This document shows, piece by piece, positions 1-10,913 of a stretch of DNA of 38,055 bases. The number at the start of each line of letters is the position of its first letter. The stretch's first letter is position 1. The notes beneath the pieces are model-generated. The model was not told the DNA's origin and made no database searches. It saw only the letters and a program-made list of their open reading frames with translations. The translations under genes were made by a program, and so were the position numbers. The stretch is from Verrucomicrobiia bacterium (GTDB lineage Bacteria > Verrucomicrobiota > Verrucomicrobiia > Verrucomicrobiales > DEV007), in the NCBI GenBank assembly GCA_020439925.1, contig JAGRPC010000057.1:1-38055 (forward strand). The letters run 5' to 3'.

Positions 1-1576
1 TGCCGGTGCCCTTGAACTCCTGGAAAATCGCCTCGTCCGCCTTGCTGTTGGTCTGCACGAGCGCCGTGGCAATGATGGTGAGCGAGCCGGCCTCCCGGGT
101 ATTACGTGCCGCCGCAAAGATTCGGCGAGGAACTTCCAGCGCCCCGACGATGAGACCGCCGCTCGCGGTGCCGCGTTTTCCTCCACCTCGCATCTGGCTG
201 TTGAAGGCGCGGGCCAGGCGAGTGATCGAATCCATGAGCATCACGACGTGACGCCCACTTTCGACGAGACGCTTGGCACGTTCGATCGCGAGAAGGGCGA
301 TGCGGGTGTGGTCTTTCGCTTCGGAGTCGTTGGAACTGGAGAACACTTCGACATCCGGAAACGTCCGCTCGAAATCGGTCACTTCTTCGGGCCTTTCATC
401 GACAAGAAGGACCATGAGGTGGATCTCTTCATCGTAGTTCTTGAGGAGACCTTCGGCGATATGATGAAGAAAGGTCGTTTTGCCCGTTCGCGGAGGGGCA
501 ACGATGAGGCCGCGCTGGCCCCGGCCGATAGGCGCAACCAGATCGATGACCCGCGTTGTGAGCCGGGCCGGATCGGTTTCAAGGGTAAGCTTCTTGTTGG
601 GATTGATCGCAGTCAGTTCCTCGAAATAGGGGAGACGCGCGCATTCCTCTGGCGGGCGGTCGTTGATGGAGAGAATCTCCGTCAATTGAGGGCCGCGCAA
701 TCCCTGCTTGGAGACGCACCGGACCATGTGCCCGTCACGGAGACCGAAAATACGCACCACCTCCGGGGTGATGAAGACATCCTTCGGCGACTGCTGGAAT
801 CCCCGGATGCGCTCGCGCAGGAAGCCGAAACCCTTGGGGGAGATCTCGACAATGCCCTCCGACTCAACTGCCGGTGAGGATTCGAGCAACTCGGCTTCGC
901 GGGCACGCTCCTTTTCGCGGCGCTCGAGATAGCGCTGCTTGCGGGTCTTGAAGACCCTGGGCTCTCCGTTTTCGCCCTCGGTGGTGCCGTTCTCATCCTC
1001 TCCCTCCGGAAGGTCGGCAAAGGACTCATCCGATTCGTCACGGTCATGACCTTGGGCATAACCCTCGGAGTAATTCTCGCGCTCGCGGTTCTCTCCATTT
1101 TGATCACGCGGCCCCTTGCGGCGGCGACGCCGGGAATTGCGTTTCCGCCCCGAGCCTTCGGATCGATTCGCGGATTCGTGAGAAAAGGTTTCTCCTGCCG
1201 TGTGATTCCGAGTTTTTTCCTCCAGTCCTTGGCTCCTTCCTGAGATGCCTTCGGGTTCAGCTTCGGAAGCAGCCAGCGAAACGGGTGCCGATTCGGTCGG
1301 TGAAGGAATTGCAATTGAAGGAGAAGCCGTGGCAGATGCCGTTTCCGACACCGGCATTTCGGATTTGGGAAGGGGCGGATGAGTTGCGGAGGTGGATGAA
1401 ACGGCCTCGGAAGAGCCGATTTCTTCTGACGCGCTCGCAACCCGCTTCTTTGCCGAAGACACAGTTGTTTTCCTTTGAGCCCTCTTTCGCGATACCGGAG
1501 CCTCCGACTCGCCATGCGCAGATTGAGATGGCGCTTCAAAATTGCCGGTCTCTTCGAGAAATTCAGATTCGCTCAT
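1..1576 (-). CDS. rho: Transcription termination factor Rho, 3' end cut by window edge
   Basis: Rho is a hexameric RNA-dependent ATPase/helicase that ends transcription. The reading frame starts at the ATG at 1576 and stays open to base 1, giving 525 visible residues. Residues 1-240 are a low-complexity extension, first Ser/Ala/Thr/Pro-rich, then Arg-rich (about 144-155) and Asp/Glu/Asn/Gly-rich (about 157-207). A cold-shock-like RNA-binding domain follows (about 241-305, core PKGFGFLR, VFITPEVVR). The ATPase begins with IGRGQRGLIVAPPRTGKT, placing the Walker A lysine at 366; LVDERPEEVTDFER and LLAIERAKRLVESGR come next, and the last visible residues are FQEFKGTG. By comparison with E. coli Rho (419 residues) about 75 C-terminal residues lie outside the window. 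No Shine-Dalgarno precedes the ATG. The family call is secure; long N-terminal extensions are known in Rho of several phyla. Confidence 0.97.
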   Translation of the reverse strand, partial: MSESEFLEETGNFEAPSQSAHGESEAPVSRKRAQRKTTVSSAKKRVASASEEIGSSEAVSSTSATHPPLPKSEMPVSETASATASPSIAIPSPTESAPVSLAASEAEPEGISGRSQGLEEKTRNHTAGETFSHESANRSEGSGRKRNSRRRRRKGPRDQNGENRERENYSEGYAQGHDRDESDESFADLPEGEDENGTTEGENGEPRVFKTRKQRYLERREKERAREAELLESSPAVESEGIVEISPKGFGFLRERIRGFQQSPKDVFITPEVVRIFGLRDGHMVRCVSKQGLRGPQLTEILSINDRPPEECARLPYFEELTAINPNKKLTLETDPARLTTRVIDLVAPIGRGQRGLIVAPPRTGKTTFLHHIAEGLLKNYDEEIHLMVLLVDERPEEVTDFERTFPDVEVFSSSNDSEAKDHTRIALLAIERAKRLVESGRHVVMLMDSITRLARAFNSQMRGGGKRGTASGGLIVGALEVPRRIFAAARNTREAGSLTIIATALVQTNSKADEAIFQEFKGTG

Positions 1577-1965
1577 GAACAGGAGAGAGGAAAGCGGGGG
1601 GCTGAGAGGGAAATTCGCGCTTGAAGCCGTGATTCAGGCGGCAATGCCTTCGAGGCTTTTCGTTTCGAAATCACGGCTGCATCCATGACTCCTTGGAGCA
1701 AGGTGCATGGGAACGAGCCGATGAGGCTGGGAAATTCACGACTGAAAATAATGAAAATTTTTGAAATTCGACAAAAGACGAACTTCAAGAATGAGACCGA
1801 AGTGGCGTCGCGAGTAGCAACGGGGCCGGCCGTCCCTTAATCCGAAGGAGAGAAATGCGCCCGGCGGGGTGAAAAAGGGCGCCGCGGACTCCCTATCTGA
1901 AAGCGTTCAGGGACATCGAAGTCTCTCCCGTTCCGCGCTTTCGCGCAAGTCTTTTTTTAGTTCCC
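1577..1965. other. Intergenic region between panB and rho
   Basis: This 389-base gap lies downstream of panB and upstream of rho, both on the minus strand. I see no convincing gene in it. It should hold the rho promoter and 5' leader; an AT-rich stretch at about 1741-1780 is the best place. On the plus strand a 4-bp GCGC/GCGC hairpin near 1937-1948 is followed by a run of seven T (about 1952-1958), but the stem is too weak to call a terminator, and no plus-strand gene would use it. Confidence 0.6.
1745..1774 (-). promoter_or_regulatory. Possible rho promoter
   Basis: Read on the minus strand, TTGTCG (1769-1774) and TATTTT (1745-1750) are separated by 18 bases inside an AT-rich patch, about 170 bases upstream of the rho start. 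Matches to the sigma-70 consensus are partial, so this is only a candidate. Confidence 0.25.
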
Positions 1966-2739
1966 CTAAGCATCTACCTTGTCACTATCCACCACCTCTT
2001 CCCGGTAAGCGTCGAGGGATTTCCGGATCACTTCTGCCACATTGCCGTGAACCTTGGCGAAGGGAGGAACAAACCAGGGGAAGGCCCCAATGACATCGTG
2101 GAGGACCCTCACCTGACCATCGCAACCCTTTCCGGAACCGATTCCGATGGTCGGTATCCGGAGAGATCGGGTCATCTCCGTAGCCACACGTGCCACCATG
2201 CTCTCGAGAACAACAGCGAAGGCACCTGCCTCCTCGAGAGCCAGACCAGCCTCGAGCAGTTCTTTGGCTTCCGCCGCGACTCGTCCTTTCTTCCTATAGC
2301 CACCTTCTTCGCGGACTCTCTGGGGCAGCATTCCGAGGTGGGCGCAAAGCGGAATGCCTGAATCGACGATCTTCCGGACCTTGGCGACTTGTTCGATGCC
2401 ACCCTCAAGTTTCACCGCGTCTGCCCCGGCTTCGATGAGCCTGCGAGAACTGTCGATCGCCTCGTCGGGATCCCTGTAGGTATCGATGGGGAGGTCGGCA
2501 ACCAGGACGGCCTTTTGCACTCCTCTACGGACTATCCTGGTGTGATAAACCATCTGATCAAGGGTCACTGAGGTGGTGTCTTCACAACCGGCCACCATCA
2601 TGCCAAGGGAATCGCCCACCAGGATCAACTGAATTCCTGCTTCGTCGCACAGCCGTCCTCCCGGGTAATCGTAGGCAGTGATGGCGGTGATCGGCGCTTT
2701 AAGCCGGTTTGAAAGAGGGTGCGGAGGGAAGGTTTTCAT
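1966..2739 (-). CDS. panB: 3-methyl-2-oxobutanoate hydroxymethyltransferase (PanB)
   Basis: PanB transfers a hydroxymethyl group from 5,10-methylenetetrahydrofolate to 2-oxoisovalerate to make ketopantoate, the first committed step to pantothenate and CoA, in the cytoplasm. The 257 residues cover the whole TIM-barrel family (E. coli 264). Visible signatures are ITAYDYPGG, LVGDSLGM, VADLP, VKLEGG, AHLGMLPQ and GIGSGKGCDGQ. Family metal ligands map to Asp43, Asp82 and Glu112, and the catalytic glutamate to Glu179 in VVLESM. The ATG at 2739 gives a normal N-terminus but has no clear Shine-Dalgarno. No panC or panD is adjacent; the gene appears to be transcribed alone from an AT-rich promoter region about 80 bases upstream. 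The assignment is secure. Confidence 0.96.
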   Translation of the reverse strand: MKTFPPHPLSNRLKAPITAITAYDYPGGRLCDEAGIQLILVGDSLGMMVAGCEDTTSVTLDQMVYHTRIVRRGVQKAVLVADLPIDTYRDPDEAIDSSRRLIEAGADAVKLEGGIEQVAKVRKIVDSGIPLCAHLGMLPQRVREEGGYRKKGRVAAEAKELLEAGLALEEAGAFAVVLESMVARVATEMTRSLRIPTIGIGSGKGCDGQVRVLHDVIGAFPWFVPPFAKVHGNVAEVIRKSLDAYREEVVDSDKVDA

Positions 2740-2791
2740 GGCTGCTAAACCTGGAAAGCAGGGTAGGGGAGGAAATAAAATCTCAAGAAAG

Positions 2792-2821
2792 ATTATGAAA
2801 ATATTGACTAATTATGAAAAT
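2792..2821. repeat. Short direct repeat upstream of panB
   Basis: The 11-base word ATTATGAAAAT occurs at 2792-2802 and again at 2811-2821, start points 19 bases apart (roughly two helical turns). It lies just downstream of the candidate panB -10 box, in the leader. The position would fit a repressor binding site, but the AT-rich composition makes a chance repeat possible. Confidence 0.35.
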
Positions 2822-2825
2822 TATA
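2820..2825 (-). promoter_or_regulatory. Candidate -10 box for panB
   Basis: A perfect TATAAT on the minus strand lies about 80 bases upstream of the panB ATG, inside an AT-rich region that contrasts with the GC-rich surroundings. The -35 region is weak: TGTTTG at 17 bases spacing is the best match. Confidence 0.45.
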
Positions 2826-3045
2826 TAAACTTCCTCCTAACACAAACACTCGCTTCCAACCGCCGCCTCCGAAGTTTCCTCTGTCTCCGCCAGCCCTTCA
2901 AGTCCTGCCGATCCCGTTTCCGCAGAACCTGGACAACTTGGAGAAGTCTGAAGAAACCGGATGTCGGTAGGAAGAACAGACAAACAGATGGTAAACGACA
3001 CAACAAGAAGGCTGGAGTTTTATCCAGTCCGGCAAAGCCTCTTCG

Positions 3046-3099
3046 AAAACCGGATTCCCGCAATCGGAATTTGGGAAAAGGGGGCGGGATTCCGGTTTC
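3046..3099. repeat. Imperfect inverted repeat in panB-rsmI gap
   Basis: The arm AAAACCGGATTCCCGC (3046-3061) is nearly the reverse complement of GCGGGATTCCGGTTTC (3084-3099), with one mismatch and about 22 bases between. No T-run follows on either strand, so it is not a standard terminator. It could be a structured RNA element, a relic of a mobile palindromic repeat, or chance. Confidence 0.4.
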
Positions 3100-3283
3100 A
3101 ACAACGGTATGACAAGAGCAAACGTCCCACTTCGGACCGTCCCACTCCCCGTCGACGTCAACGAAACCTTTCTCTGCCGGACCGGGGTATCTCTCCCTCG
3201 CCGCTTCCTCAACAAGATGCGGTAGCGCCCTTTTGACGTGTCACGAGAACGACTTTGTCCGCAAGGACATTGGTGAAGAGATG

Positions 3284-3324
3284 AAAAGCGGGGGCGGAAC
3301 CGGGCTGGTTCCGCCCCCAGCTTT
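3284..3324 (-). terminator. Intrinsic terminator after rsmI
   Basis: A perfect 12-bp stem (GGGGGCGGAACC at 3290-3301 pairing with GGTTCCGCCCCC at 3307-3318) with a 5-base loop begins a few bases beyond the rsmI stop codon. On the minus strand it is followed by GCTTTTC, a short T-run. AAAGC/GCTTT can extend the stem with one bulge. It closes the bamD-like/lptE-like/rsmI transcription unit. Confidence 0.8.
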
Positions 3325-4038
3325 CTATTCACTCGAAGCCTGATCTCTTCCGGCCCCCCTGATGAGGAGGGTTATCTCTCCCTTTGCAGGATTCTCGGAA
3401 AAATAGGCGGACAATTCACCGGCGGCTCCTCGATGATAGGTCTCGAACCGTTTTGTCAGTTCCCTGGCCACACAGACTTCACGATCCGGGGCTAGTTCGC
3501 GGATAGCCTCGAGCGTCTTGAGGAGGCGATGAGGGGACTCGTAGAAAATCGAGGTCTCGCGCCGGACCAGAGCTTCGCGAACTTCACGGGCGCGCCGGCC
3601 GGACTTCACCGGCAGAAATCCGCCGAAATAGAAGGCATCGCTGGGAAGTCCCGAACCTGCCAGAGCGGTCACTACGGCACAGGGGCCGGGCAGGGCTTCC
3701 ACCCTCAATCCCGATTCCAGGGCGGCATTGACAAGACGGTATCCCGGATCCGAGATGCCCGGGGTTCCGGCATCGGAGAGGTAGACAAGCCGCAAGCCCG
3801 CCGCGACACGACTCACGAGGTCAGGGACACGATGCCGCTCATTGTGTTCGTGGAGAGAGACCAGCTCCTTGTCGCGAATTCCGAGGTGTTCGAGAAGTTT
3901 CCGCGAATGTCGGGTGTCTTCGCAGGCCACAAGATCGGCCTCCCGGATCGCCTCGGCCGCACGGAATGTGATGTCCCCAAGATTACCGATCGGAGTGGCG
4001 ACCAGTTGAACGATTGCGTGGGATGGAGAGGAGTTCAC
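3325..4038 (-). CDS. rsmI: 16S rRNA (cytidine-1402-2'-O)-methyltransferase (RsmI)
   Basis: RsmI uses S-adenosylmethionine to 2'-O-methylate C1402 in the decoding centre of 16S rRNA. The 237 residues show the tetrapyrrole-methylase-fold signatures of this family: VATPIGNLGDIT near the N-terminus, ACEDTRHSRKLLEHLGI, YLSDAGTPGISDPGYRLV, ALPGPCAVVTALAGSGLP, and FYESPHRLLKTL. It is shorter than E. coli RsmI (286 residues) and ends just after the catalytic fold (KGEITLLIRG), lacking the usual C-terminal extension. The start is GTG at 4038, supported by AAGGAG seven bases upstream. The lptE-like gene ends 38 bases upstream, so the two are probably co-transcribed. The assignment is secure. Confidence 0.95.
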   Translation of the reverse strand: MNSSPSHAIVQLVATPIGNLGDITFRAAEAIREADLVACEDTRHSRKLLEHLGIRDKELVSLHEHNERHRVPDLVSRVAAGLRLVYLSDAGTPGISDPGYRLVNAALESGLRVEALPGPCAVVTALAGSGLPSDAFYFGGFLPVKSGRRAREVREALVRRETSIFYESPHRLLKTLEAIRELAPDREVCVARELTKRFETYHRGAAGELSAYFSENPAKGEITLLIRGAGRDQASSE

Positions 4039-7383: not shown

Positions 7384-7514
7384 GCGGTGGTAGATTTGAC
7401 CCTGTTTACGTTCGAACAGAACAAAACGACGTCTATTTTTCGCAAATCCTCGCCGCTTCAGCAATCATTTTGCCCCAATGTAACGGGATCGCGCCTCGTT
7501 GCGTCTACTTCGTG

Positions 7515-8711
7515 ATGCCTTCAATGCCGACTTCGACAGACGTCCCTCTTTCCTCCGCCTATGCAGGTGAAGTCGGGACAGAAATCGTCGAACAGCCAGG
7601 AAACCCGGGGCACGAGAATCTCCCGCGTCGGATTGGTCGTGTTTTTGATGCCCTGCTTGGCTTTCTAACTCTCGTGCCGTTCCTGGCCGTGATCTCGGCG
7701 GTGCCCCTTCTGAACCTGTTCAGCCTCGGGTATCTTCTCGAATCCTCGGCCCGTGTCGCCCGCAGCGGCAGGCTTCGCGATGGTTTTATCGGGTATCGGG
7801 GGTTTTCGGCGATCGGCAAGGCGCTTCTCTGCCTCTGGATTGCTTGGCTCCCCCTGCGTATCGTTTACAGCTATTGGCAGGATGCCGAGCTGATCACTCC
7901 GGGCAGCCCTAACTCTCGAGCGTTACGATTGGCCCTGATCGTTCTTTCCCTTCTCTTTTTCATCCATGTCACGTGGGCTCTCATTCGTGGGGGCAAACTG
8001 CGTCATTTCCTCTGGCCGGCTCCTTTCCGCCTGCTTCGCTGGCTGGGATCCGACTGGAATGTTGGTCCAGTGATCGAAAGACTGCGGTCATACGTAAAGG
8101 CATTGCGGCTAGGCCATTTTTTCCGGCTTGGCGCAGGTGGCTTTGCCGGTGCCGCCATGTGGCTCGCGCTGCCCGTCCTGGTTCTTTTTGCCTCGGCTCA
8201 GGTTCCCCAGCCCGGGCTTTCCTTTCTCGGCTCCTTTCTCGGGAGCGTCCTTCTGGGACTGGTGGTCATGTATCTGCCGTTTCTGCAGACCCGGTATGCC
8301 ATAACCACAAGATTCCGCGCATTTCGAGAATTTCGTTCTGCTCGTGAAGCCTTTCGCCGTGCACCTCTCGCCTTCTGGACGGCTCTGTCTGCCACACTGC
8401 TTTTTGCCCTCCCACTCTATCTTTTGAAAATTGAACTCACTCCGGACGAGATTGCCTGGCTTCCCAATATCGTGTTCGTCCTCTTCATCTTTCCAGCTCG
8501 CCTTCTGCTTGGCTGGGCCATGGCGCGGGCTGATCGCCGCGAAAGCGCTCGGTCTTGGGTCTGGCGATGGCTCGCCCGACTGGGCGCTCTCCCGGTGGTG
8601 GCGATCTATGTCTTTATCGTATGGCTCAGCCAGTATCTCAGCTGGCATGGCAGTTTCGGACTTGCCGAGCAACACGCGTTTCTGGTTCCTGCGCCCCTTC
8701 TGGGACTGTAA
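7515..8711 (+). CDS. Polytopic membrane protein of unknown function
   Basis: I do not recognise a named family. The 398-residue protein (ATG at 7515; ATG at 7524 is equally possible, and an upstream in-frame start at 7470 seems too early) has a soluble N-terminus of about 35 residues, then about eight hydrophobic segments, for example LLGFLTLVPFLAVISAVPLL, LRLALIVLSLLFFIHVTWAL, MWLALPVLVLFASAQV, LGSVLLGLVVMYLPFL, FWTALSATLLFALPLYLL and LPVVAIYVFIVWLSQYL. Cytoplasmic loops are Arg-rich (RFRAFREFRSAREAFRRA). The FRSAREAFRRAP loop and overall pattern resemble DUF4013-type proteins, but this is only a suggestion. It stands alone: divergent from the cytochrome gene and convergent with the DUF167 gene. 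Confidence 0.8.
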   Translation: MPSMPTSTDVPLSSAYAGEVGTEIVEQPGNPGHENLPRRIGRVFDALLGFLTLVPFLAVISAVPLLNLFSLGYLLESSARVARSGRLRDGFIGYRGFSAIGKALLCLWIAWLPLRIVYSYWQDAELITPGSPNSRALRLALIVLSLLFFIHVTWALIRGGKLRHFLWPAPFRLLRWLGSDWNVGPVIERLRSYVKALRLGHFFRLGAGGFAGAAMWLALPVLVLFASAQVPQPGLSFLGSFLGSVLLGLVVMYLPFLQTRYAITTRFRAFREFRSAREAFRRAPLAFWTALSATLLFALPLYLLKIELTPDEIAWLPNIVFVLFIFPARLLLGWAMARADRRESARSWVWRWLARLGALPVVAIYVFIVWLSQYLSWHGSFGLAEQHAFLVPAPLLGL

Positions 8712-8978: not shown

Positions 8979-10913
8979 TCAGGGCGCCTTCCAGAGCTTG
9001 AAGGATTCGATCCCTTCGTACTCGGCCATCCCGAGAGAATCATAGACAGCGGCATTCTCGCGATTGCGCGCGGCCGCATTGAGATCGTCCTCATTCAGGG
9101 ACATGAAACGGCGCAGGGCTTCAGTCTTTTCTTCGAGCTGGTCTGGACTCATGGGGACTGCCATATCGATTTCGTGCGCCTCGAGAGGTCGATCCCGTCC
9201 ACGATAGAGCCAGACCTTGCAGTCGTTTCGGAAACCTGCACCGTAAGCCATTGCCCATGCCTCCGCGAACGCTCGAAAGGCAATGGCCTGGGGAGAACTC
9301 GGATCGCTTGCATCCCCGGTGGCGAAGACACTGTGCGGTTGGAAATCAGCCAAAACGTCCCGAACTCCTTCCGCATCTGCGGTTTCAAACCGAAATCGGC
9401 GATATCTGCCAGATTCGTAAAAAGGCAGGTCAAGAAACTGGGAATCATGATATCGCAGTCTACAAACGGAAGCTGCATCCCGGGCTTCACCGCGGAGGAT
9501 GAGAGCCTTGAGCTTACGAACGAAGTCGGGGTCGATTCCAAATTCCCCTTTCGCATCGATGGCCTCGACAATGGAGCGGGCATAGGAAGTCTGACTCTCC
9601 CACTCTGGTGAATGGCTCGACTCGGCCATTTCCAACACGACACGGGCAAAATTCAAGGCCGCTCCGTCCGCCACCCGAAGGTTCCCTGAGGTTTGAAAGA
9701 CCAGCCTCACCTCGTGGCCTTGCTCACGAAGCCGGGTCAGAGTTCCTCCCATCCCGATAAAGGCGTCAGTGGGCTCGGGACTGAAAACAACGACTCGTTT
9801 CGGGAACGGCTGGGATCGTTCGGGACGCCGGGAATCATCCACGCCAGGTTTTCCTCCGGGCCAACCGGTGATGGTGTGCTGAACCCGGTTGAAAATATCG
9901 ATATTCACTTCGTAGGCCGCTTCAGACGTGGACGCCAAGAGGCCTTCGGCGCCATTTTCGTTGTAATCTTCGTCGACAAGCTTCAGAACGGGCTTCTCGA
10001 GCTTTCGAGCCATCCAGACGACGGCCCGCTTCTTCATCGGAGCATCCCATTCGACCGGACCGACGAGCCAGGGAAAACGAAAACGGGTCAGGTAGGAAGC
10101 GGCTGCCTGATCGACCAGGAACGTGGCATTCGGGTGAGTCTGGAGGAAGCTGGCGGATACCTGGTCCGTTACTTTCCCCTCCACGGCCTCGCGTACGATG
10201 CCCGCCTTGTTTGCCCCCCAAGCCATGAGAACAAGCCTTTTCGCCTCGAGTATGGTCCCTACCCCCATCGTAATCGCCGACCGGGGCACATTGGCAACCC
10301 CCATGAAGTCGGCTGCAGCATCCTGTCGGGTGACGCGGTCGAGGGTGATCATTCGGGTCGCGGAATCGATGGCCGATCCGGGTTCGTTGAATCCGATATG
10401 ACCGGTTCTTCCGATTCCGAGAATCTGAAGATCCAACCCTCCAGCCTCGGCGATCCGGTGCTCGTAGTCGCGGCAATGATCGTAGACGGCCTCCATCGGA
10501 ACGGTGCCGTCCGGCAAATGGATGCGGTCTGGAGAGAGGTCTACGTGATCGAAGAGCTGGTCGCTCATGAAGCGGTAGTAGCTCTCGGGGTGGTCGCGAG
10601 CCAGGCCGTAATATTCGTCAAGATTGAAAGTGATGACGTCGCGAAAGCTGAGCCCCTCATCCCGGTGCAGCCGGATCAACTCGCGATAAAAGGGAACGGG
10701 AGTCGAACCCGTGGCGAGCCCGAGCACGGTAAGCTTGCCGGAGGCACTGCGTTCGCGGATGAGTGCAGCCACCTCGCCGGCCAGTGCTGCCGAAGCGCTC
10801 GCCGAATCCGGATGCACGAGGGTGCGCACCTTCTCAAAGCGTTCTCGCTGGTTGGTCTGCTTCTGACCTGCTGCTTCGAGAATCTGGAGTGGCGGCGTCG
10901 TGGGAGTGCTCAT
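8979..10913 (-). CDS. NagB-like deaminase fused to degenerate PIG-L domain
   Basis: This 644-residue protein joins two domains. Residues about 25-310 are a glucosamine-6-phosphate deaminase/isomerase fold: LATGSTPVPFYRELIRLH, FNLDEYYGL, LGIGRTGHIGFNEPGS, ITMGVGTILEAKRLVLMAWG. NagB converts glucosamine-6-phosphate to fructose-6-phosphate and ammonia. The usual GADGH catalytic stretch reads GRTGH, so the aspartate is Thr, which I believe is typical of the long two-domain form known from Bacteroidota. Residues about 372-640 align with PIG-L/LmbE deacetylases (VVVFSP, GMGGTLTRLREQGHEV, FLDLPFYESGRYR, FATGDASDP, EIDMAVPMSPDQL). The zinc motif HPDD is EPTD here (380-383), and DPHGTH is DPSSPQ, so the C-terminal domain is probably not a hydrolase. 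ATG at 10913 has no Shine-Dalgarno. Likely role: amino-sugar catabolism; exact reaction uncertain. Confidence 0.88.
   Translation of the reverse strand: MSTPTTPPLQILEAAGQKQTNQRERFEKVRTLVHPDSASASAALAGEVAALIRERSASGKLTVLGLATGSTPVPFYRELIRLHRDEGLSFRDVITFNLDEYYGLARDHPESYYRFMSDQLFDHVDLSPDRIHLPDGTVPMEAVYDHCRDYEHRIAEAGGLDLQILGIGRTGHIGFNEPGSAIDSATRMITLDRVTRQDAAADFMGVANVPRSAITMGVGTILEAKRLVLMAWGANKAGIVREAVEGKVTDQVSASFLQTHPNATFLVDQAAASYLTRFRFPWLVGPVEWDAPMKKRAVVWMARKLEKPVLKLVDEDYNENGAEGLLASTSEAAYEVNIDIFNRVQHTITGWPGGKPGVDDSRRPERSQPFPKRVVVFSPEPTDAFIGMGGTLTRLREQGHEVRLVFQTSGNLRVADGAALNFARVVLEMAESSHSPEWESQTSYARSIVEAIDAKGEFGIDPDFVRKLKALILRGEARDAASVCRLRYHDSQFLDLPFYESGRYRRFRFETADAEGVRDVLADFQPHSVFATGDASDPSSPQAIAFRAFAEAWAMAYGAGFRNDCKVWLYRGRDRPLEAHEIDMAVPMSPDQLEEKTEALRRFMSLNEDDLNAAARNRENAAVYDSLGMAEYEGIESFKLWKAP

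Follow-up and report, generated by a model that had tools for sequence, protein, structure and literature searches.

The two-domain gene and its surroundings

The window, that is, the whole stretch of 38,055 nt that was analysed, contains on its minus strand, at positions 8979-10913, a gene with an ATG start that encodes a protein of 644 aa in which a NagB (glucosamine-6-phosphate deaminase) half is joined to a PIG-L half. Two-domain proteins of this kind, the 'long version' of NagB, were already known in 2006, if not earlier (PMC1484493). The window protein belongs to the corresponding family, PRK02122: the NCBIfam model NF002557 matches it over its full length (residues 15-642) with 761.5 bits (E 5.9e-229), above the curated cut-off of 384. 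It shares domain order, length and linker with the family and is about 47% identical to the Cytophagales forms.

Pfam recognises Glucosamine_iso at residues 36-258 and PIG-L at residues 376-537. The NagB half (residues ~25-275; 10089-10841, minus strand) scores 260.8 bits with the equivalog model TIGR00502, whose cut-off is 236.9, and the PIG-L/LmbE-fold half (residues 373-644; 8982-9797, minus strand) scores 34.8 bits with PF02585, whose gathering cut-off is 28.2. The connecting region between them (residues ~276-372; 9798-10088, minus strand) is typical of the two-domain family. It includes the stretches LKLVDEDYNE and TITGWPGGKP, and most of its conserved columns are identical in both clades of the family described below. 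These strongly conserved blocks (LKL.DEDYNE and QHTITGWPGGKP) are covered by no Pfam model. On the opposite strand, positions 7470-8711 (+) encode a hydrophobic protein of 413 aa without a Pfam match, which adjoins the fusion gene in close relatives as well (53-62% identity).

Loss of the metal site within a probably retained fold

In the LmbE-like superfamily the active site is defined by the motif HXD1D2 and a further His, where H, D2 and H hold the metal and D1 acts as general base (PMC4101496). The corresponding positions of the window protein are E380, T382 (D1), D383 (D2) and Q542. EPTD replaces HPDD at residues 380-383 (9765-9776, minus strand), which changes the first zinc ligand from His to Glu and the general base from Asp to Thr, and DPSSPQ replaces DPHGTH at residues 537-542 (9288-9305, minus strand), which changes the third ligand from His to Gln. 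The general base has been lost together with two of the three zinc ligands, both His, and D383 is the sole remaining ligand. The window protein therefore lacks the catalytic residue set of the PIG-L/LmbE-like zinc de-N-acetylases, and its PIG-L half is predicted to bind no zinc and to have no deacetylase activity. The preliminary description of this DNA had reported these two replacements, and every motif that it named lies where it was placed. Its statement that both metal motifs are lost holds for the first ligand, the general base and the third ligand, but not for D2, since D383 is retained. It had also described the rest of the domain as preserved, in agreement with the PF02585 score, which still exceeds the cut-off, and with the flanking motifs VVVFSP (residues 374-379), GMGGT (387-391), FLDLPFYE (493-500) and MAVPMSP (584-590). 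The same genome encodes other PIG-L proteins with canonical motifs, AHPDD with HPDH in one (L014, G000:C581) and AHPDD with HPGH in another (L015, C455).

Structure modelling of the PIG-L half (residues 367-644; pLDDT 61, pTM 0.60) gave 42 matches in the PDB at E <= 0.001, nearly all of them LmbE-fold deacetylases. The best was the diacetylchitobiose deacetylase 3we7 (E 3e-8), and the best PDB sequence matches are likewise diacetylchitobiose deacetylases. Together with the PF02585 score, these matches of a model with pLDDT 61 place the domain in the PIG-L/LmbE-like superfamily, and the LmbE fold is very probably retained in the metal-less half. The likeness to the zinc de-N-acetylases of this superfamily (diacetylchitobiose deacetylase, MshB, BshB, PIG-L) extends to the fold and to the strand and loop sequences that flank the active site. 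In contrast, HXD1D2 and the further His are reduced to D2 only, and other pocket residues are replaced. The full-length model was built from only 12 close sequences and reached pLDDT 49; at these values for the full length and the domain, side chains, the distance between E380 and R505 and the geometry of the pocket are beyond measurement.

Distribution and origin of the metal-less form

Homologues were collected by searching NF002557 against 289 genomes of the phylum set, 387 of the order set and 384 of the class set, together with Bacteroidota plasmids. The searches returned 153 distinct homologues, nearly all full length, of which 128 have EPxD-type motifs ((E/D)PxD) and 22 the complete zinc set. 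The first ligand position is occupied by Glu in 127 homologues, Asp in 1, His in 23, Arg in 1 and Leu in 1. Thirteen loci in Verrucomicrobiota assemblies, 72-86% identical to the window protein, show EP(A/T)D and DPS(S/T)xQ wherever they include this part of the protein. The window's genome is fragmented into 607 contigs, which might suggest that the change is confined to this genome or is an artefact of sequencing or assembly, but the same state recurs in all close relatives, which are independent assemblies, and in the remaining EPxD sequences (128 in total), so that this explanation carries a negligible probability.

The EPxD type spans 14 family-level groups of the class Verrucomicrobiia, with the domain at full length. 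Bacteroidota have intact HPDD/DPHGTH motifs, as do some Verrucomicrobiia (L017-L024, L056, L159-L161, L163 and L177), and the two forms coexist in some genomes, such as G075, which encodes a zinc form (L022) and an EPSDD form (L057). Three Verrucomicrobiia members inside the zinc clade, L174 (RPDD/DPHGTC), L176 (LPDD) and L178 (HPGD), show separate and different damage to the metal motifs.

A maximum-likelihood tree built from 86 representatives places every EPxD sequence on one side of a single branch (SH-aLRT 99 for the full protein). The grouping is recovered from the NagB half and linker alone (SH-aLRT 96) and under a mixture model with a thinned set from which long branches and both motif regions had been removed (SH-aLRT 100). 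Because the zinc form is shared by the outgroup, Bacteroidota, and the Verrucomicrobiia sister clade, the simplest reading is a loss within an ancestrally zinc-binding fusion. As reconstructed from these trees, the loss of the metal site is a single, ancient event in the ancestor of the Verrucomicrobiia EPxD clade, which represents a large, old clade carrying an LmbE-fold pseudo-deacetylase. The alternatives of sequencing error and recent decay raised in the preliminary description both fail: independent close relatives lack HPDD as well, and the loss is one and ancient. The check that it proposed, of which lineages keep HPDD, had a divided outcome, in that the loss is a trait of one clade but not of the whole family, other two-domain forms having retained the motif. 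Among the open-access papers searched, we found none on the metal-less clade and none on another pseudo-deacetylase clade of the LmbE fold.

The standalone NagB of the Akkermansia type was considered as a possible product of shedding the dead domain. This was rejected, since the tree of the NagB half groups it with the zinc clade, outside the EPxD sequences.

Selection and residues gained in the PIG-L half

EPxD pairs have a median dN/dS of 0.090 in the PIG-L half, compared with 0.058 in NagB and 0.045 in the linker. These values, from Nei-Gojobori counting on pairs of at least 80% identity, are rough because synonymous sites are near saturation; a calculation over all pairs was dropped, since in GC-rich genomes synonymous sites suffer from saturation or bias. 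Within the EPxD clade, the share of columns with at least 95% identity is 15% in PIG-L and 41% in NagB. Judged from these substitution patterns, the degenerate half is constrained by purifying selection, less tightly than the NagB half. A useless deacetylase surviving as a slowly eroding relic would account for the far smaller share of highly conserved PIG-L columns and for the very divergent members L154, L157 and L180. However, a dN/dS far below 1, full-length domains in members from 14 family groups and the new invariant residues described below make such a relic very improbable. The preliminary description had preferred a function to decay, and this preference is upheld by the one ancient loss, the purifying selection and the clade-specific gains. 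As for the divergent sequences, L157, L180 (in genomes G441 and G432) and L154 are fast-evolving EPxD members with PIG-L halves of the type ASEPGMEC..., and are candidates for further loss of function.

Positions that are invariant in the zinc clade are kept by the EPxD clade to a very different extent in the two halves, 69 of 71 in NagB and 41 of 73 in PIG-L. The PIG-L positions that were lost are rich in residues of active-site type and include H380, D382, H403, H492, D534, H539, H542, W574 and W577. At the same time, new residues became fixed. E380 is found in 127 of the 128 EPxD members, the remaining one having Asp, and R505 in 127 of 127. The latter belongs to GRYRRF (residues 502-507; 9393-9410, minus strand), a motif gained in the metal-less clade: a GRYRxF loop is present in 121 of the 128 EPxD sequences vs none of the 23 His-bearing homologues. 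S540 is conserved in 95% of the EPxD clade vs Gly in 100% of the zinc clade, and these are not the only invariants particular to EPxD. E380 and R505 are fixed jointly in no clade but EPxD, which suggests that the metal may have given way to a new binding site or to an ion pair.

Another possibility is that the PIG-L half has kept or gained chemistry, either at an altered carboxylate metal site formed by E380, D383 and water or other ligands or through a different, metal-free reaction. The near-invariant Glu at the first ligand position and the Asp at the second in 119 of the 128 EPxD members (118 of the 127 with Glu) would provide two correctly placed carboxylates. Contrary to this, the third position carries no conserved ligand, being mostly Q, S, A or P, the general base Asp persists in only 2 members of the Glu group (n = 127), and the further pocket residues of the zinc clade (H403, H492, H539, D534, W574 and W577) are lost, so that retained or new chemistry appears unlikely.

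A NagB half with intact catalytic residues

The catalytic residues Asp72, His143 and Glu148 of E. coli NagB correspond to D99, H172 and E177 of the window protein, a likeness shared with the B. subtilis enzyme, and the D/H/E set is intact in 128 of 128 EPxD members. In 25 of the 26 EPxD genomes checked, the fusion, which scores above or marginally below the cut-off of TIGR00502, is the sole strong NagB; in G290 it scores 235.8, just short of 236.9, and the EPxD genome G018 encodes another strong NagB besides the fusion. The window's genome has no second strong NagB and a separate nagA (244.9 bits). The conserved residues, and indirectly the place of the fusion as sole strong NagB, suggest that the NagB half of the window protein is an active deaminase.

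Its regulation may be different from that of the model enzyme. GlcNAc6P activates E. coli NagB at an allosteric site that includes Lys160 (PMC4008608). Apart from the PIG-L fusion, the window protein differs from the E. coli and B. subtilis enzymes at this position, where it has I189, and all 151 sequences compared have I, V or L. The lack of a Lys160 equivalent in the family suggests that GlcNAc6P control of the E. coli type is probably altered or absent.

Genomic neighbourhoods and a proposed role of the predicted pseudo-deacetylase

The EPxD neighbourhoods examined share neither a sugar context nor a conserved arrangement of genes that points to a substrate, and synteny was confined to the genus. 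Several zinc forms, on the other side of the family, adjoin genes for chitin or amino-sugar use (GH20, GH18, a sugar transporter, ROK/LacI regulators and nagA), and the Parabacteroides fusion is adjoined by two nagA genes. The idea that the PIG-L half replaces NagA was rejected for want of complementarity: nagA-like genes, called at E <= 1e-40 with a model that also catches other amidohydrolases, are present in 24 of 36 EPxD genomes vs 6 of 11 genomes with the zinc form only.

We infer that a non-catalytic role on the deaminase, through ligand binding or through assembly, is the best reading of the metal-less half, and the data do not firmly separate the two. The regulatory or sugar-binding role suggested in the preliminary description is a candidate, with a purely structural role as its rival. 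The dead domain could be a scaffold only, one that helps the NagB half to fold or to form oligomers and binds no ligand. This would be compatible with the intermediate constraint (dN/dS 0.09), with the loss of most polar active-site residues alongside the retention of many other positions invariant in the family, and with the conservation of the linker and of the C-terminal segment in both clades. The weaker constraint on PIG-L than on NagB, which counts against a ligand-binding or regulatory role, also fits a structural one. Yet E380, R505, the GRYRxF loop and S540, which are clade-specific and lie within the loops of the former active site or close to them, exceed what a bare scaffold needs, and the standalone NagB of other bacteria functions without a PIG-L domain. 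A pure scaffold is a serious possibility, held with limited confidence.

The reading that we tentatively prefer, at somewhat less than even confidence, is that of an active NagB fused to an ancient pseudo-deacetylase, a non-catalytic module that would most likely bind an amino-sugar metabolite or an acetylated relative and modulate the deaminase half. The PIG-L domain of the original fusion would have depended on zinc. A single ancestor of the EPxD clade would have replaced the first zinc ligand with Glu and lost both the general base and the third ligand, after which the degenerate domain may have been retained as a non-catalytic module. Speculatively, the remodelled pocket, lined by the invariant E380 and R505, the GRYRxF loop and S540, would bind the ligand, E380 and R505 may form an ion pair where the metal used to sit, and the ligand-bound pocket would modulate the deaminase half within the enzyme assembly.

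The opposite loss in Bacteroidales

The Bacteroidales members of the family, from Bacteroides (L051, gene at 1408-3399), Parabacteroides (L052, 1474-3459), Prevotella (L055), Phocaeicola (L197) and a gut record (L199), have the architecture of the window protein and, like it, one disabled half, but it is the opposite one. Their HPDDD and DPHGTH motifs are intact, whereas NagB Asp72 is changed to Tyr and His143 to Asn wherever the site was read. These two substitutions suggest that the NagB half should be dead in these proteins, and their annotation as deaminases is probably wrong. Both halves are intact in Cytophagales and in some Verrucomicrobiia. The best reading of this distribution is that a bifunctional fusion may have shed one activity or the other in different lineages; among open-access papers, no report of such reciprocal loss was found.

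A bolder version of this scheme, which we consider rather doubtful, is that one fusion of an N-acetyl-sugar deacetylase and a deaminase gave rise to two opposite half-dead enzymes. In the Verrucomicrobiia a Glu-Arg pair would have replaced the zinc site and turned the domain into a sensor that controls the deaminase, and in the Bacteroidales a dead deaminase would partner a live deacetylase. Databases name all members 'glucosamine-6-phosphate deaminase', which would be wrong or incomplete in opposite directions for the two groups, the Verrucomicrobiia EPxD proteins being deaminase-like without deacetylase and the Bacteroidales proteins deacetylase-like without deaminase. The three states, with both halves live, only NagB or only PIG-L, form a natural series for testing what each domain does.

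The set of viral contigs searched contained no relatives of the two-domain protein. A Bacteroidales-like two-domain NagB gene is present in two records named 'Bacteriophage sp.' (L198 and L199; MT835912.1 and MT836045.1, UNVERIFIED, from human faeces), which are probably bacterial DNA.
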